From Lytechinus variegatus (lineage: Eukaryota > Echinodermata > Echinoidea > Temnopleuroida > Toxopneustidae): a DNA stretch of 64,000 nucleotides. The stretch covers positions 66,066,697 through 66,130,696 of the forward strand of contig NC_054741.1 in NCBI RefSeq assembly GCF_018143015.1, written 5' to 3'. The notes below the pieces were generated by a model, which ran no database searches, was not told the DNA's origin, and worked only from the letters and a program-made list of their open reading frames with translations. Shown piece by piece: positions 5,612 through 39,200 of this stretch. The translations under genes and the position numbers were made by a program. Position 1 is the stretch's first letter, and each line of letters begins with the position of its first letter.

Positions 5612-6834
5612 TTAACATACTTGTTTTCCCTCAAAAGAATAATAATTAAGGTCAGAAGCATTGAGGCACGATTTGACATGAAAATCATAAGAATTGTGAA
5701 CACACAGATATTGCTGAGCTTCGTTGTACCATATGCAATCAGGTTACAGTTTTTATTTTTCCCTATTTCATTAATGGCACAGCAGTCAGATGTCTGGTTC
5801 ATCAATATGGTATAAGAATTGTGACTTTTTCTTAATAGTTGGCAGCTCTGTGTACTACATTTACATGAATATAAATACACAAAATACAAGATTAATGACA
5901 AAGTAGCAGAGCAAACGGCTGATTAGTTTACACCTACTTCATCTACTTTCCATTTTGTCTCGTCCCACATGGTTTAATCCTGGTTCATCTAAAACCATTT
6001 ACCTCCTAAACAATTGATCTAATACAATTCTAATTTCTGATTATGCTATACCGTATACCATTCTGTCCAAAATCCACTTGGTCTATCACCACTTTTTAGT
6101 ATTTATGGTTAGATGAAATCTTTATGAACCAAATATCAATTTTCCAAAGTAAAAAAATAAGATGATTTGGAAGTTAGACCAACTGAGCATTAGATGAAAT
6201 GAGAATTAGGCTAGGTGGGCATTAGACCAAATGCAGTGTAGACCAAACAGCAATTAGACTACCTGAGAAACAGACCGACTGTTTGTAGTCAAAGTGAATA
6301 TAAACTGCATAAATGTACTCCTAAAATAAGTTTTGTCCAAAAACAATGCGACAACTTTAGCTCAGCAACATTTTCCATAATGTTCAGACACGGTGGGACT
6401 AAATCTCCATGTTTGACCATGCAATTGTGGACAAGCTAATTTGCATTGAGATTGATTGGTTCACTAATTTCTTTTCAATTTGCCTCCTATCTTGCAACAA
6501 TATTATTGCCCATATATCCCACTGACTTTGAACACATAGATATTGCTGAGCTTCGTCGTACCATACATTTTATGTTTCCCTATTTCATTAATGGCACAGC
6601 AGTCCGATGTCTGGTTCATTAATATGGTATAATACAAAATAACTGGCAAGTTTTGAGTTAAAAAAAAAGTATCAGGAAACTATTCTCCAGACAACGCCAT
6701 CTTTCCATACTCAAAGCTGCAAAGTTTAATACTGACAAATGTTCTATTTACAAATAGAATACAAAATACATTTTTCATGATCAAACGACATCAGTCATTA
6801 GAGATGAAACTTGTCCCTTTCCATATTTTCATGA
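5612..6834 (-). other. Probable 3' UTR / downstream region of the XNDC1-like gene
   Basis: No exon is seen here. A direct repeat of about 100 bp occurs at 5,697-5,818 and again at 6,529-6,632 (both contain ATATTGCTGAGCTTCGT and ATGGCACAGCAGTC). Between them at about 5,936-6,270 lies a MITE of the 'accatttggtctaa' family. On the minus strand an ATTAAA variant signal is at 6,730-6,725 and an AATAAA at 5,757-5,752; either could end the transcript. Confidence 0.4.
5936..6270. repeat. 'Accatttggtctaa' MITE family, copy 1
   Basis: Short ACCA-TTTGGTCTA-type words recur on both strands through this stretch: ACCATTT, CACTTGGTCTA, AGACCAACTGAGCATTAGA and AGACCAAATGC. The left half is largely the complement of the right half. 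The same pattern is found at about 33,883-34,115 and 56,325-56,590. Confidence 0.6.
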
Positions 6835-7697
6835 TCAGTCAACCCATAAAGCAGCTTCAACATCCCTGAGAAAACCCCCACTTAGGGCACCAAAGCCTCC
6901 CAACCCAAGCCCACCACCATGCATCCCTCCTCCTGACTCTCCACAGAATGCTGCATGGGTTTCTATGCTGCACTGAGGGAACTCCTGGTTGCAGATGGGA
7001 CAGGGGACCAAGTCCAAGAGCATTCCTGGCTGAGGATCATGATATGAGGTGTCCATGTCGTCAGAGACATCAGAGCTTCCAGGTGAGTTGGTCCATGGGT
7101 TCGGTAAGGCATTTGCAGGTGACCTAGCCTGTCCTCGACCTCGTCCCCTACCCCCGGGCTGGCCACGCCCTCGCCGCCCCCTACCTCTAACGGAAGTCGA
7201 AGGTGTCACATGATCAACTTCATCGTCGGAGCTTGAGAGTGGATCAACATATTCTACTGAGGTAGGGTTCTTTCCCTTCTTGGTCGCTGATTTTGTACCA
7301 CCTCTACCTCTCCCCCTACCTATACCCCTACCACGCCCTCGTCCAGGGGTGGAGGTGGCATTTGTTTGACCATTGTTCTTCCCACCACGCCCTCTTCCTG
7401 TTCTACCATTGGAACCACGCTTACTTCCTCGCCCACCTCTCCTTGGAGTCCACATATCTTCCTCCCCGTTGTTTATCCCTGATGTTGCTGCATCAGTTGC
7501 CATGGTAACTCCTCCACCAAATATCCCAGCACCTGTATGCCTCTTTGATGACAAGTCATTGTGATGTTCATGGATCAGACTGTTGGCTCTACGTTTCAGG
7601 TGGGTTGCAGGACTTGGTGATGATCTAACTGGCGTTGATTCTCGTTTCCCTTGGCAATCCCAGATGTGAACGTTCATACGAGATGCAGGAAACAACC
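6835..7697 (-). CDS. XNDC1: Terminal coding exon of the XNDC1-like gene: RG-rich tract and second zinc finger
   Basis: The acceptor is a CAG just above 7,697; the first two exon bases complete a glycine codon, so the frame opens GLFPASRMNVH. The exon completes zinc finger 1 (H539, C543) and runs through about 110 residues of RG/RGR repeats broken by an acidic SSSDDEVD patch, a likely CK2-type site. It then encodes finger 2 (CPIC...H..FC). The tail is glycine-rich and ends DVEAALWVD. RG tracts commonly bind nucleic acid or poly(ADP-ribose) and are arginine-methylated, which is family knowledge rather than shown here. Confidence 0.9.
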
Positions 7698-10600
7698 CTG
7701 TTCAAAACAGAGCAAAAAAAAAAGGAAGATAAACGTATAGTGAAGCATGGAAAAAAGGAAGGCTTCATATGAAGTATGATGACCCCTTTTTTTTCAAGCA
7801 TTCGTTCTTTGTTTTAAAAGGGTTGTTGCATGCATTTCTATGATGAAAAATTATGAATGACCAAGTATATGATTGATCCTTCTTGAATTATGAGATTGTG
7901 GTATAGCAAGTAAAGATTGGCTAACAGACCTTGGGTTCTGACAAGAAATATATTGACTTATGAGGGACGGTTCCATGTACCGAGTGAAAGACTAGCATGA
8001 ACAATTTAATTCTTTTTAATTGGTTACGGTCAAGAAGGAAGCTACCTACGTCCTTGAACCTTACCTCCACATTTGGGGCACGGTTTGCCCTCACCACTTT
8101 GAGCAGGGGAGTTCATCCAAGATGGAAGGTCACGTCCTTTGTCCACAGGGTCTTTAGGATTGATGCCAGAATAGGGGATCCTGATATCGTCCCTGCAATG
8201 AGGAAATTAATATTTCATTCCATACAATGATACAACCATAGCTACTATAGCGACTAGTCTGGTTCAGTGGGGGGGAGCAGTCATCTGTATTGCTGTATGC
8301 ATGATGTTTGAGAGCATTTTATCTTTCCAGTTTTCAAAATAACTTATGTATTTCAGCGTACATTGTAAATTTTTGAGAATGACGGAATGAGTCTAGAAAA
8401 AACTCCTTTTCAAAAGTTTTTGCCTCTTCTCTTTAATTATTTTTCTCATTCATGACTCCCTTAACATGCCATGAAGTCATGAACACACCACTTTTTAAAC
8501 AGCAAAACTTTTTTATTTTATTTCTGTATTCTTTTAATCAATCACGTGTTACACTGATATAGTTTACTCCCAACCCCCCCCCCCAGCAAGTTCTGAATTG
8601 ATCCACAAGTAACTTCAAATAAAAATTCAGCTCTTAATCTAATCAAAGAACATGATGCGATTGATTCTTAATTGGTGGGCCACACTTTCAGTCTTATAAT
8701 CTCTTCAATACCTTTTCATCTGGAGACTTAATCCTTAACGAAAATCACAGCGATATAATCCTACTTTTCATCCCTAGCATAAGCTCACAGGAGCCAGAGA
8801 AATAAATCTTTGGCTCAGGTATGGTGCAGTCGCTATATTGCATGGTATAAATTTGTGTTTCCTCTCCCATTGTAGACATTCACAAGAAGTCCATATGAAC
8901 AATGAGCTTATACAATTTCCAGCGTAGTAAAGCTTACATAAAAGTTACTTGTATCTTGAAACAAGGGCTAAAGAATATTCTTTTGATGGGAAATATTGAG
9001 GGAAGGAGGAGTACAGGGGAATATAAGGAGAGTTTGGGTATGGTTCTGCAAAAATTTGGGCAAACTTAGAAATAAGTAGAGGAAGTAGGATTTGTGCTCA
9101 TGAGAAAGGCTAGGAGCTGACGGTTGTGCAATGAACAGTAGGGCCACCAAATTCAAAACAATAATGCAATAGGTATAGAGACAGACAGAGAACGATCTTT
9201 ATCTTAAGGAAAAATTAATAAATAAAAGAAAATGTCTTTTAGAAATAAAACACAATACCTAATAGGAGGGTTTGAGAAGGTAGAAGGCGGCGATGACTGT
9301 AAACATCCATTGTTTTTGCTATTCCTAGCTGGTCCAGAGATTGGTATATTTGGCCGTGAGGAATTAGCTTGTGACCATCTGTTATTCAGCGAGCTGGCAT
9401 CCTTACTGCATGGTCCGGCATTTGGTGTACTAGGGGTGGGCTTAGCTTGTATCCATCCTGAGCTGGCATCCCTATGGCATGATCCAACATTTGGTATTCT
9501 AGGGGTGGGTTTGGCTTGTAGCCATCCACTCTCTTTCTTGCTTGTCCTTCTCAGTCCAATGTCTGGTGTATCGGTCCCTGCTGGGTCATCCAAGGCTTCT
9601 ACTGCGTGAATGGCCAATCGCTTGAAGATTGCTTTCTCGCTCTTTACTAGTTTCCGGCCGAGGCAACTCTCAAACTTGGGTCTCAATTCTGGAATAAAAG
9701 ATCGCGGGAAAATATCAGAAGTTGTTGATAATATTAATAAATAGCAATAATACTGTGATTCAGAAACCCACAGACAGAAAGGTTTGTAGAAGGTTTCAAC
9801 ATGATGATATGCTCATTAAGTCTAATGCACAATGTAGGACAAGCTTGAGCACAGAATTTTACCCCCAAAGCTTTCAAAATTTGCATATTACAAGAGATAT
9901 CTTCAACCATATTCAAAACTTAAAGACAAGTTATTCATCTACATACAGAACTATATGTATCATGCCATCCATAAATATACAACACTTGCCTTGAACCTAG
10001 CTTATAACTGTAACAGATGCTGCAGCTCTATTTGATGTTCAGCTAGTTTCAGGCAGCCTATAATCTAGGGGGAGGCTTTAGCGATATGTCTGATGCAGTG
10101 ATACTACTGAATGCAAATCACCCACCACCTATACTGCTAAAACTGTTGCAACAAGACGATAAACCATGGATGCAAAGTACCCACTGATCGTACCGTCTTG
10201 CCTTGCTTTCATCATTTTTTTCCTTTTCATCAACTGTGATTCAATGCAGATTTTTTTTTGCAAAAGATTGCCACCAGATATCTGCCTATGAGAAATCAAT
10301 GACTAAAACAAGAGTAGGTATGGATGATGGGTGCTTTGCATCATGTAGTCTTACTGCATCAGACATACCGCTGAAGCCTCCACATTGATAACAGGCTACC
10401 CTGAACCTCCCTGAAATACACTTGGATAACATTCAGATGACTATTTATTACACTAAATTCACATTTATGTTGCCACAAAGATCGAGATGTTTTTACAACT
10501 TCCTTCATTTCACTCTTGATAGAATCCCTCACATGGACATGCACCAAAAGTTCAGCAAACAGAAATTGGACAGTAAAAACAGCAAGGGGCACACATTGTT

Positions 10601-13600
10601 TCTTTACCTGTGAGAGTAGCATCTTTTAATGCGGGGCCTACATGGGACAGAAACTCTTTGACCTGTTCCTCAAGAAGAAGAGCCGCATCATCAGGTGGCT
10701 GCTCCAAGACAGACGTCTTGTTCTTTCCTTTTCCTCTCTTGGTCCCTGTTGATGACGATGAAGATAAAGAAGGGGGTGGTTGAGGAGTTGAAAGTGATGC
10801 AGTTGGCATCGTAGCTCCCGATGATGATGTTGATGAGTTCTCATTATTGATGGACGACTGGGAGGTCGATAAGGGCACTCTTTTCCCTGATGCAGCTAAG
10901 ATGATCTGTGCAGCTCTGCCCAAGGAGTGTCCACTCTGAGACTTAGACTCTGAGGTAGACTCTATCCTGACAAGCCTGTCTTTAAGGTCTAATGTTGCAC
11001 TATTCCTATTTAAAATGAATAAAATATGAATACTCTTGATAGAATTAATACAGAAGATATATACAGATACTTTTGATATCAAATATTTTCCTTTTCATGA
11101 AAAACAGAAATTGCAAATTCCAGCCGGTTGATTCATGAACAAGTGGAATGCCTCTGGCCGTCTCACCTGCATCACGCAGTTCAATATAGCAGCAGTGCTG
11201 ACTTTGAATACTACTCTAACTCGCACAAGATGTTCAGTGATACATGGTTACTCTTATGTCCACTTTTTATGAACTAGACCAATAAACTTACAGAGATATG
11301 ATGGTTATTCAACAAAAAACCCCAACAGGGCCAAAGTTCATTGACCTTACATGACCTTTGACCTTGATCATGTGACCTGAAACTCGAACAGGATGTTCAG
11401 TGATACTTGATTACTCTTATGTACAAGTTTCATGAATCGGATCCATAAACTTTCAAAGTTATGATGGTAATTCAACAGATACACCCAATTCGGCCAAAGT
11501 TCATTGACCTTTGACCTTGGTCATGTGACCTGAAATGCGCACAGGATGTTCAGTGATACTTGATTACTCTAATGTCCAAGTTTAATGAACTAGACCAATA
11601 AACTTTCAAAGTTATGATGGTAATTCAACAGATACCCCCGATTCGGCCAAAGTTCATTGACCCTAAATGACCTTTGACCTTGGTCATGTGACGTGAAACT
11701 CATGCAGGATGTTCAGTGATACTTGATTAACCTTATGACATTTCAAAAACTTAACCTCAGGTTAAGATTTCGATGTTGATTCCTCCAACATGGTCTAAGT
11801 TCATTGACCCTAAATGACCTTTGACCTTGGTCATGTGACATGAAACTCTAATAGGATGTTCAGTAATACTTGATTAACCTTATGGCCAAGTTTCATTAAC
11901 TAGGTCCATATACTTTCTAAGTTATGACGTCATTTCAAAAACTTAACCTCAGGTTAAGATTTGATGTTGACGCCGCCGCCGCCGTCGGAAAAAGCGGCGC
12001 CTATAGTCTCACTTTGCTTCGCAGGTGATTCATGAACAAAACATTATGATGATGCTTGTTCTTCACTGGCTATGGCAACCACATCTTGCAACACACAACT
12101 TTAACTTCAAATTAAACTTTTCCTTCACGAGGACAAAAACCATGCTGCCTGTGCTGTTTTTATTATCGTCCCAGGGGAATAGTTCCGTAATTAACTTTGG
12201 CCTGTGGGAAATTTGTCCTACCACTTGTCATAATTTACTTACAAAGTTGCCAATTTGAAATTTGTCATAATTTACTTACAAAGTTGCCAATTTGAACTAT
12301 GTTATTGCTTGTCCGATTTCTTTCAAACTGTCACCATTCTGCTTTACCTATTTTTCATTTCTCTAAAAGGTTGACCAATGTTAGATTCCCCTTTAAAATA
12401 ATTAAATTTGAATGGTTTCTATTTCACCACAAGCCATTTTCTAGTGAATAGGTACCTCTTTAAACTTTGCTCTTGTCACTCCAAAGCTATTCAAGTAAAT
12501 GTCTGTCCTGCATGTATATGTACATCAAGTTTGAAGTTGATCTGTGAAACAGGTTAAAACTTTCAAAAATACAAAAAGCCCCGTCCCCAGACTATGCAAT
12601 TTCAAAATAGCCTGGGCTATATAGGGTTAAGGAATGATTTGTACTTACTCTCCAGGGTTGATCGCATTCACTTTTTTCTGGAATGCAGCATTTGACTTCC
12701 AAGATGGTGAAAGGATCGAGACCTTTTCTTGTTTCTGGACAGGCTTAGGTTTCGGGACAGGCTTCTTTATCTCCTAATTTTTAGAAAAGTGAGATAAGTT
12801 TCAAATAAAGTTAATGCACATATAGAGTGGCTTACATTAGTTCATGTTAAACAATACTTCGCATGGATCTTTTTGAACACTATTACAAAACCGAATACTA
12901 TTATTATTTATACATAGAGTTGAGAAATATATGAACAACTGGTTTCAGACATAAATCTGTCCAAGGCCGGCGAAATGTGACCTCAGGGTTGGCCTCGAAT
13001 ATAAATATCCCTGGTGACAGTAGCAGGGAAAAGGTCACATGTGCAATACTTATATGATGGATTATGCATAATGCATAATCCATTATGCAGTTTAGAAGGT
13101 GGAACAGAATAATATAGTGCAACTTACATCCTACATGAATTAAATCCTGTATGCTGATTGGTTTAAATAGCATTTAAATAGCAAATGACCAAACATATTC
13201 TCACTATTTTGCGATGATGTCGAAAATGAAACGCCCACCGAAGAAAATGTGCTATTCCGTGACTTTAATGATGGAATAGTCGACTATTCCATCATTGACG
13301 GCAAGTCCCGTGAAGGGACGGCGCAGGCACAAATCCGCGTTCCGCTGAGCGTGTGGTTTCGGGAAAAGTAAATCAGTCTGCGCAGCGTGTTAAAAAAAGA
13401 TGATCTACGTGTACAAGAGTAGATAGACTATTGTTTTATATGCCTAATTAAATGTAGGATATAAAACAAATATACCAGGGCTTTATTTTGAAAGTATAGA
13501 GGTAATTATTTATCCTCGGTTGTACTGGACTATTTTTCCCTCGGGGCTTCACCCCTTGGGGAAATAGTAACGCCAGTCCAACCTCTGAAAATAATTCCCG

Positions 13601-16600
13601 CTATACTTACTCAAAGCCTGGTATATTTGTATACTATACACAGATGACTTACTGTATGCTTGACATGCGGCTGTCTATCTTCAGCGACATTCTCTTTCTC
13701 CTCAACGGAACTAATCTTGATGAACGCAAGACCAAACTGAGCATCTTTCTTGAAGGGTTGCCTGCAAACCACCTTGATTCGGTCCCAGTACTCATCACGA
13801 GCATCTTCACAAAGTTGGTCTGCAAAGTCAGTTTTAGATTATGAAACTATAACTAGTTCAAAACATAAATATATTTTCAAAGTATTGTCAATGATGACTC
13901 TGATCTGAAACATAGTACTTAATCATCAAGGACAGCCCCAGCACCAACCTTTCGCACTACCATTACTTTTGTAGTGACAACAAATCTCAGTGCATTTCAA
14001 AATGGTGAGTAAACTCAGTGGTATCATGCTAAAAGGGGATCCAACTCAACCTACCACCAAGTTGTGAAAAAACATACCAGTATGCAGATTGATAAAAGTT
14101 TGAATAAAATCAATCATTGTCACACTGTATTTGCTAACTACACAAAATTACTCAGAAATGTGTCCTGCACTTCTTTATCTCAAGACCAATGTGTGTGCCA
14201 TTTTTCATGAAAATTTTTTAAAAGCTGAGAAAGTAGTTCTAGTTCGAATCACAGGAATTTTACTAATTTTTGCAATAATATACCATTACCATGGCAACAC
14301 ACTTTCTGACACATGCGAAAAATGTGTCTTGCACATCACTACCCCAAGACCAACGTATGTTCCAAACTTCATGATTGGTTAGACTTTGAGGAAGTAGTTT
14401 GCACTGCAAGATTTCCAACGGACTAACAAACCAATCATCTATTACCAGACCATATGCTGATTCATACCCCTTCAAACTTTGTTTTGGGGGGTATTACAAA
14501 TTCACTCAGTAGGATTTTTACTTAGATCTTTTTATGAACTTGCAAAATTTCAATGTTATCAATGCCACTTTTTAAAAATCTTTCTCTTTCTAATTTTCAG
14601 CTTTTAATTTTGTTTACCAGAAATGGACAACCCTTTACACGCCCACAGTAAACCTTACCTCTAGAGAACATCTTGACACCTGTTTTGTTCTTGCCCTGTT
14701 TACTATCCATGGGTGTCATACAGCTTGTGGTTGGTACCAGAGTCTTAAACTGATCATCAGAGGCAGATGACCGACGCACAAGAATCTCAATCAATGCGGA
14801 TCCATAGTTACCTTGGGAAAACAAATCAAGATATCAATGAGAATAAATAGTACATGTAGTACAATAACATTTTCAAATTCAAATTTTAAGTCTAAAAATT
14901 TACAAATACCTTTCCCCTTTTAAAAGGAAAGGGAAAGCATGCAGTACATAATATAAGTCATAAATGTTGTTCTACCATGGTTTGACCATCTGTGATTTAT
15001 ATCAAAATGGTGTCAAATTCCGCCATGAAAATAGACAACAACCCCTCTTCAAAGCTTTAGTTTTCTGCTATACAATTCAACTACTTCTCAAAATTACATT
15101 GATCTTATTCTTTTATTTTCTTTTTTTTTCACACAAACCTAATTGCTCCAAGGAGCTCTATATCTTAAAAAGAAGGAATTGTAAAGTTAATTGCAATACT
15201 ATGTAGAAATTCTATGTGGAAGCGCCGTGGTGTAGCGGTTTTGACTCTCGCCTTGTAATCAGAGGGTCGTGTGTTCGAATCCCACCATGGCCTAGCGCCC
15301 TTTGGCAAGGCCTCAATCCACACTTTGCCACTCTCACCCAGGTGCTAATTGGGTACCGGTAGGAAACAACCGTCATTGTGATTGGTTTAGCAAGTTTGCG
15401 CCTAACAGGCTGCTTGGAATGCTATGAATCCAGTGACCGGTTTATAATAATTGTGAAGCGCTTTGAACAGTCATAGATTGATAAAGCGCTATATAAGTGC
15501 CAATTATTATCATTATTAATTCATCTTCACTTAGTCAGGGAAGGTCAGGAATTCACCATAACCTGCCTCTAGTACTAGTAATCTCAACACTTCCATAGTT
15601 TCACCTTGCAGGAGACAACAGTGCATATATATAGGGCCTACTTTGGGAAGAATCTGTACACATGGCAACACAGGAGTGCAAACTATGATAACAAAATAGG
15701 GTTTGATGAACTGTGATTGTCTGACAGATTTGTTATAATTTTTCTTTTAATTACCAACCTCTGTAGTCTGCAGCTAATTTTTTTATTGTTTTACAACAAT
15801 TTAGATGTCACATAAGTGTGAAGTTTTAGCAAATTTAGAATGATAGTTGAAAGTTTTTATTGGGGTTTTCAAATCAATATTGCTATGTGAAGCAAAAGAC
15901 ATGTAGATGACTAGATGTCCCTTATAGTGTTTTAACATACCAATATCTATGAATCCAATCCTTACAGCTCTCTCCAGTTGAAACTCTGCTTGAACCGACC
16001 CAGATCGATCACCAGGAGCACACAACCAACGTCTCCATTGATTAGTTTCTAGAAGGTTTTTTGCACAATGATCTGTATCCTAAAACATGAACAAACAATC
16101 AAAATATTAAGGTGATGCCAGTAAACAAATCAGAATATCAGAGGAAACCTACAGTTTCCGGCTCAAATGACAGGGGAGGTGGGAAACCCAAGATTGAGTT
16201 GAAATTTTAAGTTGAATGTATTTCAGATTCAGACTTTCCATGTCTCATTAAAGAAAAAATGCAAAAAAATATTTTCATTTTATATTCCTTTGCGACTTTG
16301 CTCAAAAGATGCGTCATTCGTTTATCTTTCTAATAAAACTCATTCATTTTATTGTAAAGCAGTAACAGCTCCAAGGCTCAAAACCCTTTTAAAACATATT
16401 CCAAACGTGCATGTTGCCGACTTAAATTCCAATGCATTCATCTTTGTGACTTTCTCAGGAAGATGCACGCGACCGTGAAAAAAAATTGATTTATTCCTTT
16501 GTTTTTAAACATCGCCAATTCGATGTTCAATTCAATTTTAGAAGTTTAACTTCCAATCCGATTTTCGATCTGATTCTTGATCCGATTTACATTAATTTCA

Positions 16601-19600
16601 ACACAGGTTAATATAACTTTATATCATTAGGATAATGATCACTCATCAGCTGGCAATTGGTAGGATTTTATTCCCAGTACATGTATTTGTCATTTTGTAA
16701 TATTATTGTTTAATATCATGTTTAGTTTTTAGTACTCACAATTTTGCAAAGGTTTATGATCAGTTTATTACAATTGCAATTTTCTCTTTCAGGATATTGG
16801 TATTATACACTCAATTTTAGTAATAATATTCTTTGTAGTACAATTCAAATTATAATATCCTCCTGTTCCACCTTTTTTCTTCTCCTCTTTTTCTCTTCCT
16901 TTGTCCTCTCCTATTGTTGATTTTTTTTTCATATGTATTGGTCCAATCATTGTGGGAACATTATCGCTGGCGGATACATCAGCTGAGTACTAGTATTTGC
17001 CAATCAGCCAAGTATTATATGTTATTGATGTTTTATTCCTTATTTTTAAAACTTTTCTGCCGGAGAGGAAAAACTGGCAGCCGTTGTTGCCTCCATCTAC
17101 GTTCGTTAACTGCCGTCTAAGGTATGATACTTCTGAATTTCATATATCTTCGTGTCAAGTTGGATGTATTTCTGTTTTATAATGTGACATTTTAATCAAC
17201 ATTTTATGTATTATTAAAAAAAAAACATCCGAAAATCGGGTTTCCGCCAAATAGTTGTCTTTAAGTACGTGTACGTCAACAACACTTCACTCAGTCATGT
17301 ATTGGTGTGAGTGGAGCCAATGCACCCATGGGTTCATATCATCTCGCGTGCGAAGGATTATCAGTCATACGCACGCGACACACACCTACACTTCCAAAAT
17401 ACAGTGGGTTTTTGCCCACATAAAACATTATGTATGAATTGGTATTCCACATCCTGCTATGACACTTACCGAATCATTTAGATCCTTCCGTGACTTCTTG
17501 AAGTTTCTTTCTAAAAATATGTATATTTTCTTGATCTTTAGTGAAGATTTCACAGAGATAGAAATCAGTCAGCGTTGATATCAATTTTCTCCTGAAAAGG
17601 GCGCGCGATTTATATTCATATCAAAGACACGACAAGGGAAAGAATAGGCACCTACACTATTTTACACGCATATCGACGCAAGGCATTACGCAAAGTCCGT
17701 GAAGTGTCCAATCTTTTCATTGTATAGACTTTGGTATACCGTATACGTATTATTGACGTTCGTGTGTGTGTGTGTGTATTTGAGTTTTGTCAGACGTGTA
17801 TCAATCAGATATGATTATTTACGTCTGGGACCGACCTTTAACGTCACCATCCGAAAGACGTGACCAGGGCTCGAACCTCGAACCTCTGCATCAATTTGTA
17901 ACTTCCCCACAGCTTGGATTACAGGCGCACGCCACAACGCCCAGTTAAAGCTTGTACTGCTGGTTTCTTTCCAGGCACGTATATTATTTTCATTTTTTTT
18001 TTATCAGTCATCTTTTTAAATTTATTGCAAATGAGTGTTATCATCACCAATAATAATCATTAATTATGTTTTTGAAGGTATTTCATTCATTGGTGCCCAT
18101 AATTAGTAAATTAATCATAAGGATTGCGCATTCAAAGAATTTAGATACAGTTATAAAATTACCGAGGAGCTGAATCAAGGTTGTGAAATTATTAGCGCCA
18201 CCAACGGGCTTCTTTGTATTTCCATGGAAGAGACCAGCGAAGTCACTTTCGAGGCCGAGGTAAGCAAAATGTGCTTTTTTTAAATGATTATTATTTTCAT
18301 ATTTAATAAACTATTGCTACTTACCGGCAAGAGCCCCGGTGCATAGCGAGGAGTTTCGGCAAATATTACTTCAGCAGTGAAGCGATGTTTGCCGACTACT
18401 TCGAAATCCAGGGTCAAACACGGGCTATTGTACGAGGTTAGTACATACTAACCTCGTACAATGTGTGAGTGGAGCCAATGCAGTTCAGCGGAACCAAAGA
18501 AATAGAGACTGAAGCTTTTGAACTTGTCTTGACTCTTGCCTGGCTTGCCCTATCTCGATTAATTTAGATCTAGGCCTAGACCTATGCTATGGCACTCATT
18601 CAATGAACAAGGTTATGATATAACCTTGTTCTCAGTTGCATCCCCATGTGTGGCCAAATAATGGTGGCAATGTTTGGCTTAATTTCTCTTTTTATATGGG
18701 ACGAATGCTTGATTTTCTTACACTGTCAGTTTTCATTACAGCTATTCATTACATAACTTGGCACTTATGTAAATTTAATTCTTTAAATTATTTTTTTCTT
18801 AATTAAAAATAGAGACTGAAAAATGAAAATTTTCTTGCCATATTACTTTCCACCAATAGAGGGCATTCACAAAAATATGCCCAAAATTCAAGTTTTTGAG
18901 CGCTCTGGTGAATACAAAAATTGTTCCCAAGTTACTAAATAAAAATAAATTGCAACTGTATGGAAATCAGTAATTTCGGTAACAAAAGTGATATTTTAAT
19001 GATTTTTCAAAGTGTGTGCTATTTACAGCATTGGCATACATAGTCCTACTTGTAGATTCTCCACAGGCAGGATGGTTGCAGTGAACAAGTGTGCTATGGC
19101 TAAGCCCACTTGTTCACTGCTACCATCTGGCCTGTGGAGAATCTACAGGTAGGACTATGGTATGCCAATGCTGTATAGAGCACACACTTTAAAAAATCAT
19201 TAAATATCACTTTTGTGACCAAAATTACTAATTTCGATACAGTTTTAATTCATTTATCATTAGTAATGTGGGAATAATTTTTGTATTCACCAGAGCGCTC
19301 AAAAACTTGAAATTTGGGCATATTTTTGTGTATGCCCTCTATTGGTGGAAAATAATATGGCAAGAAAATTTTCATTTTTTGATCTCTATTTTTAATTAAG
19401 AAAAAATTATATAATGAATCAAATTTAAATAAGAGCCAAGCAGTATGAATTAACAGGTCTAATGAAAACTGTCAGTGTAAAAAAAATCAAGCATTTGCCC
19501 CAAAGAAAAAGAGAAAATAAGCCAAACATTGCCACCCTTATTTTGTCACACATGGAGATATAACTGAGAACAAGGTTATATTATAACCTTGTTCATTGAA

Positions 19601-22461
19601 TGAGTGGCTAAGCCCCGGGGGGGGCCACTTCCATTCACGAGTGGATACCATGTGCGACCATGGAGTCTCAAAAAGCACCCTAAACACGTAATTTCCATAT
19701 TCTGAAAATGCACCCCTTAACAAGTATTGGCGTGTGAAACCCTACCCTTAACAAGTATTGGAAACAAAACGATACTCTTGGCAAATATTCCCTGAAATGA
19801 ACCCCTAAACAAGTACAGGAATGTTTTATTGTTACGGGTCCTTCGGTCGTCGGCTTTACCATATTTGGTTTAGTACGACCCCACCTTCTACAACTCGTGC
19901 AAATCGGACTCTAAACACGAAGTGTTGGGGCAAAAAGGACATCCTTTATAAAACATTTTAATTTTGTTTTATCATCCCCGCAAATTCGACCCTAAACACG
20001 TAAATTTCCTATCAAAATAGATACCCTTTTTTCATTATTTTTGTGTTTTTGACACCCTTATCACGTTACGTACGTAACGTGCCCTATCGTGAAATGACAT
20101 CCTATTTACGTGTTTTTTTGGTCGCGCATGGTATCCACTCGTCAATGTAAGTGGCCCCCCCCCCCCCGGGGGCTAAGCCCGAGCAGAGATTCACACTAGA
20201 CTAAGACTACACAAACAGAATATTAACAGCAATTGCATGAATGGCCTTCACGTTTACTCTAGTTTTAAAGTATAACCTCTTTCAGGCATTCAAGTACAGT
20301 ACCACTTACCAGACAAGCTGTATATTATACAACCAAAACTGAGCTGAAAGTAAGAGCTGAAAGTATCAGCTATATTACATGATTTTTTTTTTTTTTTAAA
20401 TACAAATTATACATCACTTGAAAGGTTTTTTCAAGACAAATTCAATGGTGAAGACCAAATTACAATTGGAGCACCATAACTGAAGCTATGGCCTCTTAAA
20501 GGGACGCTATACGCAGAACTTTTCTGCCACCCAAGACAAGTACCCATTGGGTGGCAGATCTACAGGTACTTGTAGATCTAAGAAACTTCCATACTTTTTT
20601 TTCATGTAGGTTACTAAGTTAATTTGACTAAAATGCAACACAAGAGGTGATCTTGTAGAGCATGGCTGTGTTACCTTCATATTTTTCTTATTCAAACAGC
20701 TTCTATTTGTGAAAATATAGTATACAAGAAGAAAGATAACAAATTAGAATAAGACAAGAGAAATGCATGGAACGCTTTGCGTTGTTAAAAAAATTAATCA
20801 ACTCTTGGGGGTCTCATTCCTCAACAGACTTTAATCAGAAAATAAAAATGAATGTCCCACTATACTTCCTGGTATCTGTAAGATTTATATCATTCAAAAG
20901 TAGAAAATTAAGTTTTGCAAGTAATTTTTTTTTTCTTTCTGTTTGTCCATGTTCACTCTGTATTCTGTATAATTACCATGATGTCTCTTTTTGTTTGCAG
21001 ATCTGAGAATGCGAGATCAGACAGCTGGAGCTGCAACAGTAGCTAGAAATGTTCTCCACTGCTTAGAATTATAGAATATATTAACATTAAATATATTGGA
21101 ATATATAAAGTTAAAAAGCAACTTGAAGTCTCTGACATTATCTGAATTTCTACTACATTTAAAATCACATTTACAAAATAATCTCCCTCCTAGTAAACAT
21201 AATCAAACAGGGACCCATTATTGTGTACAATAATGGGTCAATAATCAATATCAATAATATTATTGATGAGACAGCTTATTGATATGACACAAAACAACAG
21301 AATATAGATCATTTTAATACCAGTACCAGGCAGCAGTCAATGCATGGTCTGCGCCTGTACACCATGAAAAAAAAAATGAGACTGGAATTAAACGTGCTTT
21401 AATTCCCACCTGTTTTTTTTTCTTGAAATATTAAGTTGAAATTATCATTAATTTATCATCAATACACATAATTCATGCAGAAATCAAATGCACAACTTAT
21501 CACCTACAACTACACCCACGGCCACCACGCCCACTCACTCCTTTCGGTCAGCCATGGCACCAAAATCACACTCTAGGCAGCACAACATGGGCTTGCATTC
21601 GCCTCTTGCGCAGCTATGCGACACATTCTTATAATATATATCAAAATTAGATTTTCTGATACAAATACACTTCAAAGAATTAATTTATATCTGATATTTG
21701 ACTGTTCCCTGGGAAATTTTCTGTTTATACGGCTTTGAAGTAAGAAAATAGAAACACGATTTACCGTAAGTGTCCAAAAAACTCCTTTTTTTAACGAAAA
21801 ACATTGCCGATATTGAACTGAAATCGTCACTAACTTGTAGAAGAAAGTCTGCCGATTTTAATGATACATAACACATGGTTATTTGATGCCCCTAGAGGGT
21901 GTCAACAAGTAAAAGTAACTTGCAAGATTAACCCGGTTCTGGAGTCATATTTTCCAAAATGGCGACTTCCATCGTGTGACGACGGACAGGTGGTGCTCTC
22001 GAAAACGGCCTTAAAAACAACATTTTGGCGATGCAAATGTGAGTAAATTGACTAGAAATAAGAAGTTTAGATATAATAGAAAAAGATCGTAACATTTTAT
22101 GAAAAAAGGATTTGAAATGTTGATACACTGGCTCAATGAATTTTGCCCATTTTGTGTGTTGGCAGAATAGGAAATGTGTTAAACGCGAACCCGTTGCGAT
22201 CGCTAGAAAGTAACAGCTGAGGCTGAGCAAAAAACATGCTAGGCCTAATTAAAAGACATAAAAAGCAATAGGTGGGACTGTGTCCGCTGTTAGTGTTACA
22301 CTTTTATAAATCATCTGATATTTCCATTTCCTGTCCGTTACAATATATGAAAAAAATGCAAAAAATACTTTCCCATCCCCTCTTTCCTTCTACTATCGTG
22401 AATAAAAATTTCTTACTTGAGAGCTGAATGAAACAACATTCTTCAGTTTGACAGGGGCCAT
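6835..22461 (-). CDS. XNDC1: XRCC1 N-terminal domain protein (XNDC1-like) with two UBZ4-like zinc fingers and an RG-rich tract; nine coding exons
   Basis: Coding exons, read on the minus strand, are 22461-22417, 16079-15941, 14811-14659, 13819-13653, 12773-12649, 11005-10608, 9688-9259, 8192-8065 and 7697-6835. All join in phase (2,448 nt, 815 residues). Residues 1 to about 150 match the XRCC1 N-terminal fold and XNDC1: MAPVKLKNVVSFSSQ, then AKNLLETNQWRRW, LERAVRIGFIDIGNYG, DSKQGKNKTGVKMF, YWDRIKVVCRQPF and FGLAFIKI. In XRCC1 this domain binds DNA polymerase beta and nicked or gapped DNA. No BRCT domain is seen. A basic proline-rich linker, a Ser/Thr-rich region, a charged helical segment and a three-copy repeat (residues about 397-465) follow. 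Two C-x2-C-x11-H-x3-C fingers lie at C524/C527/H539/C543 and C761/C764/H776/C780, either side of an RG-rich tract (about 612-721). Such fingers often bind ubiquitin; that is inference here. A TGA lies in frame just upstream of the ATG. The symbol marks resemblance, not proven orthology. Confidence 0.9.
7698..8064 (-). other. Intron 8 of the XNDC1-like gene
   Basis: A short AT-rich intron with consensus ends and no repeat or exon recognised in it. Confidence 0.8.
8065..8192 (-). CDS. XNDC1: Exon 8 of the XNDC1-like gene: first half of zinc finger 1
   Basis: Flanked by CAG on the 5' side and GTAAGG on the 3' side. It encodes DDIRIPYSGINPKD, then DLPSWMNSPAQSG and EGKPCPKCGG. The CPKC knuckle is separated from its partner histidine and cysteine by the following intron, so the finger is split after the second cysteine. 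Phases are 2 in and 1 out, and both match the neighbours. Confidence 0.9.
8193..9258 (-). other. Intron 7 of the XNDC1-like gene
   Basis: About 1.1 kb of AT-rich sequence with a poly(C) run near 8,575. No repeat family was recognised and no additional exon is needed for the reading frame. Confidence 0.75.
9259..9688 (-). CDS. XNDC1: Exon 7 of the XNDC1-like gene with a three-copy internal repeat
   Basis: The acceptor is TTCCAG and the donor GTATTG. The exon begins ELRPKFESCLGRKLVKSEKA, a charged helical segment. It then has repeats opening GWLQAKPTPRIPN, GWIQAKPTPSTPN and RWSQANSSRPNIP, about 23 residues apart, the third more diverged. Each has a W-x-Q-A core and a Pro/Ser tail. The repeats have no recognised domain and could be linear binding motifs. 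Confidence 0.9.
9689..10607 (-). other. Intron 6 of the XNDC1-like gene
   Basis: About 0.9 kb, AT-rich, nothing distinctive. Small reading frames inside carry no recognisable motifs. Confidence 0.75.
10608..11005 (-). CDS. XNDC1: Exon 6 of the XNDC1-like gene: Ser/Thr-rich linker
   Basis: The acceptor is AAATAG and the donor GTAAAG. It encodes NSATLDLKDRLVRIE, GRAAQIILAASGKRVPL, a long serine/threonine/proline stretch, a basic KRGKGKNK patch (possible nuclear signal) and an amphipathic segment LLLEEQVKEFLSHVGPALKD. It opens in phase 2 and closes in phase 1, in register with its neighbours. Confidence 0.9.
11129..12039 (+). mobile_element. Interspersed repeat with internal tandem units and a 14-bp target duplication
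   Basis: The 14-bp direct repeat TGATTCATGAACAA occurs at 11,129-11,142 and 12,026-12,039, bracketing the element. Inside, a unit of about 160 bp is repeated about four times (each with GACCTTTGACCTTGGTCATG, AGGATGTTCAGTGATACTTG and a GTTCATTGACC word). A GC-rich tail at about 11,970-12,025 ends CTATAGTCTCACTTTGCTTC GCAGG. It lies in intron 5 of the XNDC1-like gene. A 14-bp duplication fits retroposition; no coding capacity is seen. Confidence 0.8.
12170..12400 (-). repeat. Repeat family shared with 48.4-48.7 kb (inverted)
   Basis: The minus strand matches 48,435-48,690: TTTGAAAGAAATC, GACAAG.AATAA and CAAATTGGCAACT words occur in the same order. Within this copy the segment TTACTTACAAAGTTGCCAA is duplicated in tandem at about 12,235 and 12,270. 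Confidence 0.6.
12560..12632. repeat. Terminal fragment related to the 3.2 / 39.4 kb foldback element
   Basis: The end GGGCTATATAGGGTTAAGG resembles the right terminus of the 3,244-5,330 element (GGCCTAGATAGGGTTAA). Only the end is preserved. Confidence 0.4.
12649..12773 (-). CDS. XNDC1: Exon 5 of the XNDC1-like gene: basic proline-rich linker
   Basis: The acceptor is AATTAG and the donor GTAAGT. It encodes EIKKPVPKPKPVQKQEK, then ILSPSWKSNAAFQKKV and NAINPGE. The K/P alternation suggests an extended, possibly nuclear-targeting linker just after the XRCC1-type domain. Confidence 0.9.
13057..13640. repeat. Cluster of palindromic segments in intron 4 of the XNDC1-like gene
   Basis: Three inverted motifs lie close together: ATGGATTATGCATAATGCAT and its mirror at 13,057-13,085, a perfect 24-bp palindrome centred near 13,282 (GATGGAATAGTC and its complement), and inverted ends ACAAATATACCAGG.CTTT / AAAGCCTGGTATATTTGT near 13,465 and 13,617. 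The last pair may bound a MITE of about 190 bp. Confidence 0.55.
13653..13819 (-). CDS. XNDC1: Exon 4 of the XNDC1-like gene: end of the XRCC1 N-terminal domain
   Basis: The acceptor is TTGCAG and the donor GTAAGT. It encodes DQLCEDARDEYWDRIKVVC, then RQPFKKDAQFGLAFIKISS. The pattern W-D-R-x-K-[VI]-x-C-x-Q-P-[FY]...FGL-x-F is diagnostic of the XRCC1 N-terminal family. Confidence 0.93.
14659..14811 (-). CDS. XNDC1: Exon 3 of the XNDC1-like gene: core of the XRCC1 N-terminal domain
   Basis: The acceptor is CCCAAG and the donor GTAAGG. It encodes GNYGSALIEILVRRSSASDD, LVPTTSCMTPMDSKQGKN and KTGVKMFSR. The DIGN-x-G-[SC]-A-[FL] strand and the M-[ST]-P...DSKQGKN...GV-[KR]-MF block are the strongest family match in the protein, closer to XNDC1 than to XRCC1. 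Confidence 0.95.
15222..15521 (+). mobile_element. tRNA-derived SINE
   Basis: The 5' end GCGCCGTGGTGTAGCGGTTT carries an RNA polymerase III A box (TGGTGTAGCGG), and GTGTTCGAATCCC about 40 bp later is a B box. The tRNA-like head is followed by a unique body, a tail with AAGCGCTATATAAGTGCC and a short ATT-rich 3' end. It sits in intron 2 of the XNDC1-like gene, in the opposite orientation to the gene. Confidence 0.88.
15941..16079 (-). CDS. XNDC1: Exon 2 of the XNDC1-like gene
   Basis: The acceptor is TTTTAG and the donor GTATGT. It encodes DTDHCAKNLLETNQWRRWL, then CAPGDRSGSVQAEFQLERAV and RIGFIDIG. The first codon follows the last codon of exon 1 in phase 0, giving SFSSQ-DTDHCAKNLL, which matches the XRCC1-family start SxSSQD...AENLL. 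Confidence 0.94.
17750..17945 (-). mobile_element. SINE with a 7SL/Alu-domain-like 5' end
   Basis: Read on the minus strand the 5' end is CTGGGCGTTGTGGCGTGCGC followed by CTGTAATCCAAGCT. This closely resembles the Alu-domain start of 7SL RNA (GGGCG..GTGGCG..GCCTGTAATCCCAGCT). A B-box-like GGTTCGAGCCC follows about 65 bp downstream. The 3' part (GACGTTAAAGGTCGGTCCC) resembles SINE tails and not SRP RNA. It may be a chimera of a 7SL-like head and another SINE body. It lies in intron 1 of the XNDC1-like gene. Confidence 0.6.
18430..18461. repeat. Short perfect hairpin
   Basis: GTACGAGGTTAGTA is followed after two bases by TACTAACCTCGTAC. It stands just left of the large palindrome at 18.6-19.6 kb. 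Confidence 0.7.
18592..19605. repeat. ~1-kb palindrome with ~500-bp arms
   Basis: The left arm starts CACTCATTCAATGAACAAGG and the right arm ends CCTTGTTCATTGAATGAGTG. Matching words run inwards on both arms: AGAGAAA.TAAGCCAAACATT, TTTTTGAGCGCTCTGGTGAA, ATTCTCCACAGGC and CACTTGTTCACTGC, with the centre near 19,098. The arms differ by scattered substitutions and small indels, so the duplication is not fresh. One arm only is found at 32,190-32,665. No protein is encoded. Confidence 0.9.
19606..20180. mobile_element. MITE with GC-rich inverted ends
   Basis: Inverted ends: GGGGGGCCACTTCCATTCAC then GAGTGGATACCA on the left, and TGGTATCCACTCGTCAATGT then AAGTGGCCCCCC on the right. GGCTAAGCCC stands at both borders (19,606-19,615 and 20,171-20,180). 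Because that word is nearly palindromic it could be a target duplication or the tip of the inverted repeat. The interior repeats CCCTTAACAAGTATTGG-like words. It abuts the large palindrome directly. Confidence 0.75.
20181..22416 (-). other. 5' part of intron 1 of the XNDC1-like gene
   Basis: AT-rich sequence with poly(T) runs and no recognised exon. Around 21,950-22,060 there is a GC-richer patch containing CCAAAATGGCGAC, a core that resembles a YY1-type site, but no open frame of family character starts there. Confidence 0.6.
22417..22461 (-). CDS. XNDC1: Exon 1 (start) of the XNDC1-like gene
   Basis: Fifteen codons, MAPVKLKNVVSFSSQ, end at a GTAAGA donor. The match to the conserved N-terminus of the XRCC1 family (M-x-x-[IV]-[KR]...VVSxSSQ) fixes the start. 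On the minus strand an in-frame TGA lies two codons before the ATG and the context is GAGATGG. The exon is 6.3 kb from exon 2. Confidence 0.92.
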
Positions 22462-36200: not shown

Positions 36201-39200
36201 TGTCAGTTGTGCTATATTATCCACATAGATTTAGGATCAACTCAGCTTATTTGATATTTTGCAGATCAGGCTAAAAGCCTGCTCCAGATTAGTTAATCAA
36301 TGACTGATCTGGCGTTCCCGCTGCAGAAATTAAATTCATGTACCGCTATCTTGTCATCTAGATACTTGTGGATGACATGACGAAGTACATGTACAAAATC
36401 TTTACACCAATTCAGTTTGATGCTTTTATGCATCTTTTGATGAAGTTTTGTTGTTCGATGGCAAGTACTTGGAAATTTCTAGCTTTTAATTAAATTTGAC
36501 TACATGATTATGCAATTTAAAGGCATTGTGCATACAGCACTTGCTCCCCATTGCTGACCATCGGAATGGAGAGTGGATTCAGGATGTCTTTCCTGTCAAC
36601 CTGTTCTCGTATGATGTTCCTATCTCAAGCCCTTTTCCTCATTACACCATAGGCATTAAGAACAATACATAATTTTTCTGCAGTCAGAAGAGGCGTATTA
36701 AGATACATGATTTGTGGATGTGGACACCATTCTTGTTCACTCGTCCTAAACTTACCTATCTTTTCTGTCTTAGGCTTCAGTCAACAGAGCACTGCCAGCA
36801 CAGGATATGCCCAGCCCCAAGCAGCCCAGCCAGCCTACAGCCAGCCAGCCAGTGGCCAGTCAAGCTACAGCCAACCCCCAGCCCAGCCGCAGACCCAGGG
36901 CTACCAACAGCAGAGCCAGCCAGGAGGTGGTGGTTACAACCAAGGTCAGTCTGGTGGTGGTAGTGGTGGTGGTGGATATCAAAGTGGTGGTAGTGGTGGT
37001 GGACAGTATGGTCAAGATCAGTCACAAGGTGAGGATAATGGCAAAGCCCTTCCAGAGATGCCAACTCTTCCCCTTTTGAAATATTATGTTTTACCCAAAC
37101 TTTATATTACAGGTTTCATCATAAATGACCACTTCCTCCTAGAAAATTATAAAATGGAAATGTTAAGGTATAATATCCTTGATTTGCATTAAAGATTTAC
37201 AATATTTTGTTATGGAAATTTCATTTGTATAGCATGTTTGTGACATCGCTCTGTACAGAAGTGTGTTAAAAGTAATTACCCATGTCATTTTAAATCCTCA
37301 ATCCTATTTCAGGAAGATGGATTTTTGGCATCTCTACTCTAAGGCCTCCATCATTCTCTCATTCGTGATTGTCATTATCATACAGCAACATATTGAAAGA
37401 TGTGTCATACAGTCAAACTCGCTTATCGTTCAAAATTTTATCGGCTGAAATTGCTTGAGTGTTGCATATTATGAAAAGCTGCATGGCGAAATAAAAAAAA
37501 AGACCCCCCCCCCAAAAAAAAAAAGGGGGAAAAAGGAAGAAGAGTGGAGCAGGGTACCAAACATTGGCTAAATAGGGATTTTAGGAATAATACTTTTGAC
37601 ATAAACTGACATGAAGGTGATTCTGTAAGCTTGACTGTATTTAACACAAATGAGTATGAGGATATTGATGACATGCAGGGGATTCTAATCAGAGTTCTTC
37701 TTTGGTAGAGTAATTGTAGATGAAGAGACCTGAGTATCTTCCTTTTCTACTAATCTTTGCCCATTTGTGATTTCTGCAGTGTTTATTCTCTTCACATTTT
37801 TCCTTGACCTTTTACCAGTCAAATTGTTACATTTTTGGAGTGTCATTCTGATATCATTAAAATGTTTGGACCAGAAGTTTTTAGTTCATATGTTTGTGAT
37901 TTCACTGGACCAAAACATTATTGTTATGCATTAAATTGAGCTATATTCAGAGATGCAAAAAAAAATTGTAGGATTTTGATATAAAAACTGTATGTATCTT
38001 ATAGGTAAAATACACCCCCTCCCCCCAAAAGAAAAAGAAAATTGTCTACTGGATAATACTTAATTTTTTTTCTCAAAATTTTGAATGGGCTGGCATCCTC
38101 GCAAAATGGAATATATCATAATTAGATAGAACAGCTGAATAACTAATACCTTTTTCTGAAAAATACAACCCTTCTCAATGAAAATTATATTTCTCTCTTG
38201 CTTTCAGATTTCTTTTCTTCTAAGCATAATAGACTGTCCTTCAATCTCTAACACACAATTTCCCTTTGACTAACACCATACCACTTTGTACTGTAGCATC
38301 CACTTCAGATGCTGAAAACTTATCCAGTGCATCCCGGTTCGTCACAAGAGTAGAAAAGGAGCTCTAATATGACTTCATACGCCTCGCCTTAGCCACATTC
38401 TTCAATGAATCTGTACCCAGCAAAATTTCTGTGTTGATATTTAACAAATTACATTCATTCTTCTTTAATGCTCTAATTCCTTGTGATGGTTGATAGAAGC
38501 TGTAAGTCCCATACATGCTAGATATGTAATTGTTTATTATATCGATGTTCACGTTCTCAGGTGGTTATCAACAACAGAGTTCGGGAGGCAACAGCTGCTA
38601 TAGCCAACCACAAGTCCAGCAGTCAGGTTTGTTACCACACGCCCTTCCGGTATAATCGAATCCATCACTGGATCATGTTTGACTCCTCAAACTATCTTAG
38701 CTCTAAAATGTTCATTTGTAGTAGCTGTAAGTTTGCATGCATGCAAAACGGGTAATATCCATGTTTATCCCTGTTCACACTTTCAGGTGGTTACCAACAG
38801 CAGCAGCAGCAGAACTCCGGAGGGTACAGCCAACCGCAAGGCCAGCAGTCAGGTTTGTTCACACATGCCCATCTTGCTACAATCCAGTGCTTCATTTGAT
38901 CACATTTTGCTTTTCAGTAACTATGCTTTATACTACCAGGCATGTTCACATTTGCAGATTCCATTGGAGAACGGAGTATGCATCATGTGGCGATGATCAT
39001 GTCAAAGGATACATTGAACATGCCATTGTTTATTGATGTTGTTATGGACGATTATACCTCGTTGAATATAACGTTTGTTTATGTGTTGCTATGTGTAAAC
39101 AGGTGTTGAGTATTTTGATTATTTTGTGAAAGAGACAAATGAAAATAATGCAATCACTTAATCCAAAATCTTTGTTCCAAGAATTGTATGCAAATTGTAT

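Follow-up and report, generated by a model that had tools for sequence, protein, structure and literature searches.

The window, by which we mean the whole 64-kb stretch of sea urchin contig C2 that was analysed (the searched genome comprises 870 Mb in 33 contigs), carries on its minus strand a gene of nine coding exons. Its eight introns all follow the GT-AG rule, and the reading frame closes over 2,448 nt, which gives a predicted protein of 815 amino acids and a stop codon. The features of the gene are collected in Table 1.

Table 1. Coding exons and protein features of the XRCC1_N-containing gene, with positions in the window
Feature	Position	Strand	Content
Coding exon 1	22417..22461	-	MAPVKLKNVVSFSSQ; GT donor; in-frame stops just upstream of the ATG
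Coding exon 2	15941..16079	-	XRCC1_N domain, Pfam PF01834
Coding exon 3	14659..14811	-	XRCC1_N domain; sites aligned to XRCC1 F67, V86 and R109 are L, T and K
Coding exon 4	13653..13819	-	End of XRCC1_N; Pfam match stops at 13713
Coding exon 5	12649..12773	-	Lysine/proline-rich linker with SWKSNAAFQKKV; least certain exon
Coding exon 6	10608..11005	-	LGRAAQIILAA motif from residue 238, low-complexity linker; open frame, splice sites
Exon 6, 3' part	within 10608..11005	-	First part of helical-looking stretch
Coding exon 7	9259..9688	-	Rest of helical-looking stretch; in-frame GWxQAKPTP repeat
Coding exon 8	8065..8192	-	8065-8080 is the start of finger 1 (CPKCG)
Finger 1 (residues 524-543)	8065-8080 + 7654..7697	-	CPKCGGLFPASRMNVHIWDC, split between exons 8 and 9
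Coding exon 9	6835..7697	-	Contains the stop codon
RG/RGR tract (residues 609-718)	7129..7458	-	18 RG; acidic SSSDDEVD cluster between two RG blocks
Finger 2 (residues 761-780)	6943..7002	-	CPICNQEFPQCSIETHAAFC, C-x2-C-x11-H-x3-C pattern
ATTAAA, possible polyadenylation signal	6725..6730	-	104 nt past the stop

Eight of the exons were placed first, by reading translations, and exon 5 was then sought between 13653 and 11005. A simple splice filter left four in-phase candidates there, three of which (125, 86 and 29 nt) tied for the top score. The 125-nt form was kept because it gives the 815 residues reported by the original prediction, and since the exon was thus selected by length, the agreement on 815 residues is partly circular and brings no independent confirmation. 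With this reservation for exon 5, the claim of nine exons that join in phase was borne out by the coordinates, the introns and the closed frame. The exons have a G+C content of 0.42-0.53, compared to 0.30-0.40 in the 300 bases flanking them on each side. A genome search with residues 311-605 returned four matches, all four in the window and none at a second place, and the last 35 residues of exon 6 likewise have no second place in the genome. The exon 6-7 intron interrupts residues 314-377 (PDDAALLLEEQVKEFLSHVGPALKDATLTELRPKFESCLGRKLVKSEKAIFKRLAIHAVEALDD), which resemble a small helical domain, but neither Pfam at E values up to 10 nor a search of PDB sequences gave a match. A DEK_C-like identity for this stretch was considered and found no support.

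Several other features of the window were recorded. Exon 7 contains a 69-bp in-frame tandem duplication (9391-9527), whose repeated GWxQAKPTP peptides could be a short linear motif. A 163-bp tandem array of 4.5 copies (11218-11927) lies in the exon 5-6 intron, and a coding-like open frame (ETPTEENVLFRDFNDGIVDYSIID) on the plus strand faces the exon 4-5 intron (13189-13371). Also on the plus strand, 36653-53573 reads as a FET-like (FUS/EWS/TAF15) gene with a SYGQ-rich exon, two RGG exons and an RRM fragment (RRM_1, E 7e-4, 19.9 of 20.7 bits). Elsewhere in the genome, bindin, a sea urchin sperm protein, is represented by two genes or copies on contig C13 (L020 and L021) about 6.3 Mb apart (match E 4e-66). 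None of 14 control genomes gave a bindin match, and the genome is taken on this basis to be that of a sea urchin.

The N-terminal domain and its relation to XRCC1

Residues 1-148 match the Pfam XRCC1_N model over 148 of 148 positions with an E value of 1.1e-52, and the human XRCC1 N-domain chains were found in the PDB sequence search at 1.4e-37 to 5.7e-37. The Pfam check thus upheld the original prediction of an XNDC1-like domain at the start of the protein. Nothing besides XRCC1_N came above a cut-off in the Pfam scan of the 815 residues, and an NCBIfam search with the first 259 residues gave no match. The predicted lack of BRCT domains was also confirmed, inasmuch as none appeared in the Pfam scan or in a tblastn search of the window with BRCT queries (best E 2.1).

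Seven exon matches to XRCC1_N were found in the genome, three of which are the window gene, while the remaining four come from another gene, present on contig C8 in two inverted copies. The gene on C8 carries both BRCTs (best E 2.5e-15 and 3.7e-14 in tblastn with human BRCT queries) and is the canonical XRCC1. Its two copies are found at about 41.37 and 41.52 Mb (L008/L009 and L010/L011), approximately 150 kb apart, and the three longest aligned blocks listed between them are 1.6-8.5 kb in length and 93-96% identical; the pair reflects an inverted duplication of recent date or else a fault of the assembly.

Since a separate XRCC1 with both BRCTs is present in the genome, the window gene is taken to be an old paralogue, and the possibility that it is the animal's only XRCC1 with the tail lost is ruled out. 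Human and urchin XRCC1 are identical at 87 of 157 aligned columns, while the window protein is identical to human XRCC1 at 63 and to urchin XRCC1 at 60, a pattern that points to a split between XRCC1 and the window gene before the split between human and urchin. A retroposed or recent copy of XRCC1 is ruled out by the presence of introns, by the 60/157 identity and by the different intron sites in the domain, which lie after residue 15, within 62 and within 113 in the window gene and after 17, at about 85 and at about 138 in the C8 gene. The first residues read MAPVKL in the window protein, MPEIRL in human XRCC1 and MTIVQV in urchin XRCC1. What the window protein shares with XRCC1 is the N-terminal domain fold, but it is without a detected BRCT1 (PAR/DNA) or BRCT2 (ligase III) and has instead two fingers and an RG tract, together with a changed pol beta pocket.

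Relation to vertebrate XNDR/XNDC1

The window gene fits one that has been described in vertebrates. XNDR was described at the vertebrate TRPC2 locus by Frankenberg et al. in 2011 (PMC3170594), and the gene beside Trpc2 has been named Xndc1 (PMC12248226). The complete coding sequence of XNDR is contained in exons 2-10, and its most conserved, N-terminal region in exons 2-5 (PMC3170594). Like XNDR, the window gene is separate from XRCC1 and has the XRCC1 N-terminal-type domain complete at its N terminus. It likewise has nine coding exons, the first four of which encode the conserved N-terminal region, a likeness in exon number and order, and MAPVKL resembles MAPVKI translated from the published tammar primer 2F, a comparison of six residues only. 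The window gene differs from XNDR in being from a sea urchin and in not lying beside a TRPC gene, as none of the 15 TRP_2 matches in the genome falls on C2. A conserved linkage to TRPC2 is thus ruled out. In vertebrates, the linkage has exceptions in lizard and chicken (PMC3170594), and adjacency to TRPC2 was therefore not treated as a defining feature of XNDR. Neither lancelet nor sea squirt yielded an XNDR in the same account, in which the vertebrate protein is proposed to act in DNA repair (PMC3170594).

The original prediction did not know the architecture as a described one. The family has been described in vertebrates as XNDR, although the XNDR paper, the one found here that deals with the structure of the gene, makes no mention of zinc fingers, and in the portions drawn on here only the XRCC1-like N-terminal region is described (PMC3170594). 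Among the open-licence PMC papers listed by the searches, none was seen to describe the architecture or a member from an urchin.

Further comparison with the vertebrate gene was made with a presumed stretch of mouse Xndr whose letters are unverified and not independent of the window, and it is therefore used as a lead and not as a test. The stretch aligns to the window domain with 45% identity over 58 residues (E 7e-16). In these 58 shared columns, 5 support a grouping of the window protein with XNDR versus XRCC1, the other two splits being supported by 0 and 1, but plain identity does not tell the two apart, as the window protein is identical to human XRCC1 at 26 and to the presumed mouse XNDR also at 26. 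The presumed mouse stretch also holds two fingers with the same spacing as those of the window protein, and it is the sole basis for assuming fingers in vertebrate XNDC1. Its RRTFFP fragment agrees with one reading frame of the published primer 3F.

Taking these observations together, we consider it probable that the gene is the XNDR/XNDC1 of the sea urchin, orthologous to that of vertebrates and an old paralogue of XRCC1 without BRCTs that exists beside the canonical gene.

The zinc fingers and the RG tract

The two C-x2-C-x11-H-x3-C fingers are located to the residue where they had been predicted, and the pattern is not one that arises readily by chance: in 20,000 shuffles of the protein, one copy was found in 3 and two copies in none. 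On viral contigs, there were three pattern matches, of which none was a relative by tblastn. The nearest solved sequences to finger 1 are the RAD18 UBZ4 (E 0.073) and optineurin (E 0.13), both weak, and its best Pfam match is zf-C2HC_3 (E 0.00095 on a 23-residue piece, 19.5 of 24 bits). Finger 2 is nearest to the zinc finger of RAP80, with which it shares the pattern CPxC...FP...IE.HA..C, but the match is weak (E 0.022) and there is no match to the rest of RAP80. A single-sequence structure model of finger 2 was not confident (mean pLDDT 59.7 over 56 residues, best ten-residue block 75). The UBZ models in Pfam were all below their cut-offs, with zf_UBZ at 10.9-13.5 of 25.6 bits, zf-WRNIP1_ubi at 13.2-14.8 of 26.4 bits and UBZ_FAAP20 on finger 2 at 10.7 of 25 bits.

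The residues that contact ubiquitin in characterised fingers allow a closer comparison. FAAP20 uses an Asp at H-2, an Ala at H+2 and a Leu after the last Cys (PMC4267625) and, in addition, a Leu at H+1 (PMC4370504), while WRNIP1 and RAD18 use a Pro-Val loop and WRNIP1 also Asp37 (PMC4370504). The finger of NEMO, which also has Pro-Lys, falls outside both of these groups (PMC4370504). Our placement of WRNIP1 Asp37 at H+2 comes from our own count along the RAD18 chain. In finger 1, the corresponding residues are Pro-Lys, Asn (H-2), Ile (H+1), Trp (H+2) and, following the last Cys, Gln (NxHIWxCQ), so that it keeps one of three WRNIP1-type contacts (the Pro) and at most one of four of the FAAP20 type. 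Judged by these residues, it lies outside both characterised ubiquitin-contact groups, like NEMO. Finger 2 combines Pro-Ile with Glu (H-2), Ala (H+1 as well as H+2) and, following the last Cys, Gly (ExHAAxCG), which is a mixture that keeps about half of the contacts of either type. Of the FAAP20 motif DxHxAxCL with Leu at H+1, it retains an acid and the Ala and lacks both Leu residues. The WRNIP1 combination of Pro-Val loop and helix Asp is absent from both fingers, finger 1 having Pro-Lys and Trp and finger 2 Pro-Ile and Ala at these places. The fingers thus resemble UBZ2 (FAAP20) and UBZ4 (WRNIP1 and RAD18) in the C-x2-C...H-x3-C ligands and, for finger 2, in some contact residues, but finger 1 is without most of the ubiquitin contacts and finger 2 without about half. 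The earlier claim that UBZ4 fingers here read ubiquitin is weakened by the missing contact residues and the scores below the Pfam cut-offs, and from the sequence we regard it as unlikely that even one of the fingers binds ubiquitin.

The RG/RGR region of about 110 residues that had been predicted between the fingers is present and is far above chance. The 18 RG in the densest 110 residues compare to a maximum of 7 in 2,000 shuffles of the whole protein, and in 20,000 shuffles confined to the tract the count never came to 18. In this richness, it resembles the RG/RGG regions that bind PAR in other proteins, such as CIRBP and the FET proteins (PMC6953017). In XRCC1, the PAR reader is the central BRCT (PMC6953017). 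As there is no BRCT here, the RG tract would be the natural candidate for recruitment, although recruitment through RG remains a tentative and somewhat doubtful proposal.

Possible role of the protein

F67 and V86 of XRCC1 form a hydrophobic pocket that takes up the V303 loop of pol beta (PMC6614843). The V86R substitution gave no complex with pol beta on size exclusion and weakened the binding from 10.2 to 284 nM, and R109A weakened it to 170 nM (PMC8405949). At positions 67, 86 and 109, the window protein has L, T and K, while the canonical XRCC1 of the same genome has F, V and R. Such a contrast between two proteins of one genome speaks for a change of partner, and it weakens the part of the original prediction in which the N-domain contacts pol beta. 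L and T are mild changes, with which the window protein could still bind pol beta.

The explanation that we find likely as a whole is that the XNDC1 orthologue acts as a BRCT-less nuclear repair adaptor with altered partners. The protein would function at damaged DNA, where the N-domain, because its pol beta pocket is changed, would engage some other partner or have only a weak affinity for pol beta. The RG tract would take the part of the central BRCT of XRCC1 and recruit the protein to breaks through poly(ADP-ribose) or nucleic acid, and the two C2HC fingers would serve as small contact modules, finger 2 being RAP80/FAAP20-like with at most weak binding of ubiquitin and finger 1 belonging to neither characterised contact group. 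This could be taken further, to a second, pre-vertebrate scaffold of the XRCC1 type in which every known contact of XRCC1 has been replaced, the pol beta pocket by one for another partner, the PAR-reading BRCT by the RG tract and the ligase III BRCT by the RAP80/FAAP20-like fingers, so that a class of breaks would be repaired in connection with ubiquitin and not with ligase III. We think such a complete exchange distinctly improbable.

RG tracts bind nucleic acid widely, and the protein may instead be mainly an RNA- or chromatin-associated factor with an XRCC1_N fold, in which the RG region is a general nucleic acid tether and the fingers are structural or DNA- or protein-binding C2HC modules that play no part in ubiquitin signalling. 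The zf-C2HC_3 match of finger 1 and the fact that the contact residues of this finger fit neither characterised UBZ group agree with such a factor, but XRCC1_N is the domain of a known repair factor and a role in DNA repair has been proposed for vertebrate XNDR (PMC3170594), and we consider this reading possible but not the one to favour. It is improbable that, as originally suggested, the N-domain holds pol beta at strand breaks while both fingers read ubiquitin and so link repair to ubiquitin signals. The XRCC1_N fold and the CCHC spacing would fit this, as would the weak similarity of the fingers to RAP80, RAD18, WRNIP1, FAAP20 and optineurin and the hydrophobic Pro-Ile loop, the acid at H-2 and the Ala at H+2 of finger 2; however, F67L, V86T and R109K are found in a genome whose XRCC1 keeps all three residues, both fingers are under every Pfam cut-off, finger 1 has CPKC and a W at H+2, and finger 2 is without the Asp of WRNIP1 and the Leu pair of FAAP20. 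Finally, the choice of exon 5 by phase, splice score and the length in the original prediction leaves some room for two neighbouring genes joined by mistake, exons 1-5 coding for a short XRCC1_N protein and exons 6-9 for a separate RG/finger protein, but this is very improbable given that the frame closes across nine exons, that nine coding exons, the conserved N-terminal region being confined to the first four, are likewise found in vertebrate XNDR and, as a lead only, that LGRAAR in the unverified mouse stretch aligns in MAFFT with LGRAAQ of exon 6 (an alignment absent from the BLAST matches).

The preferred reading, that of an XNDC1 orthologue with altered partners, concerns a family that is known but neglected. 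Very little work exists on XNDC1: in a 2026 paper it is one of five genes of that paper's set for which PubMed gave no results, and fusion of processes is listed there for the mouse knockout (PMC12876460), and in an ovary survey the antibody staining of human XNDC1N disagrees with the single-cell RNA (PMC10775140). If the orthology is true, a sea urchin member with nine coding exons that are all open suggests that XNDC1 dates from before the vertebrates, and the C-terminal half of the protein, with its fingers and RG tract, would be worth assaying. An XRCC1 in the same animal that keeps the very pol beta pocket residues that are changed in its paralogue would make a sharp test of whether the two proteins differ in their partner.
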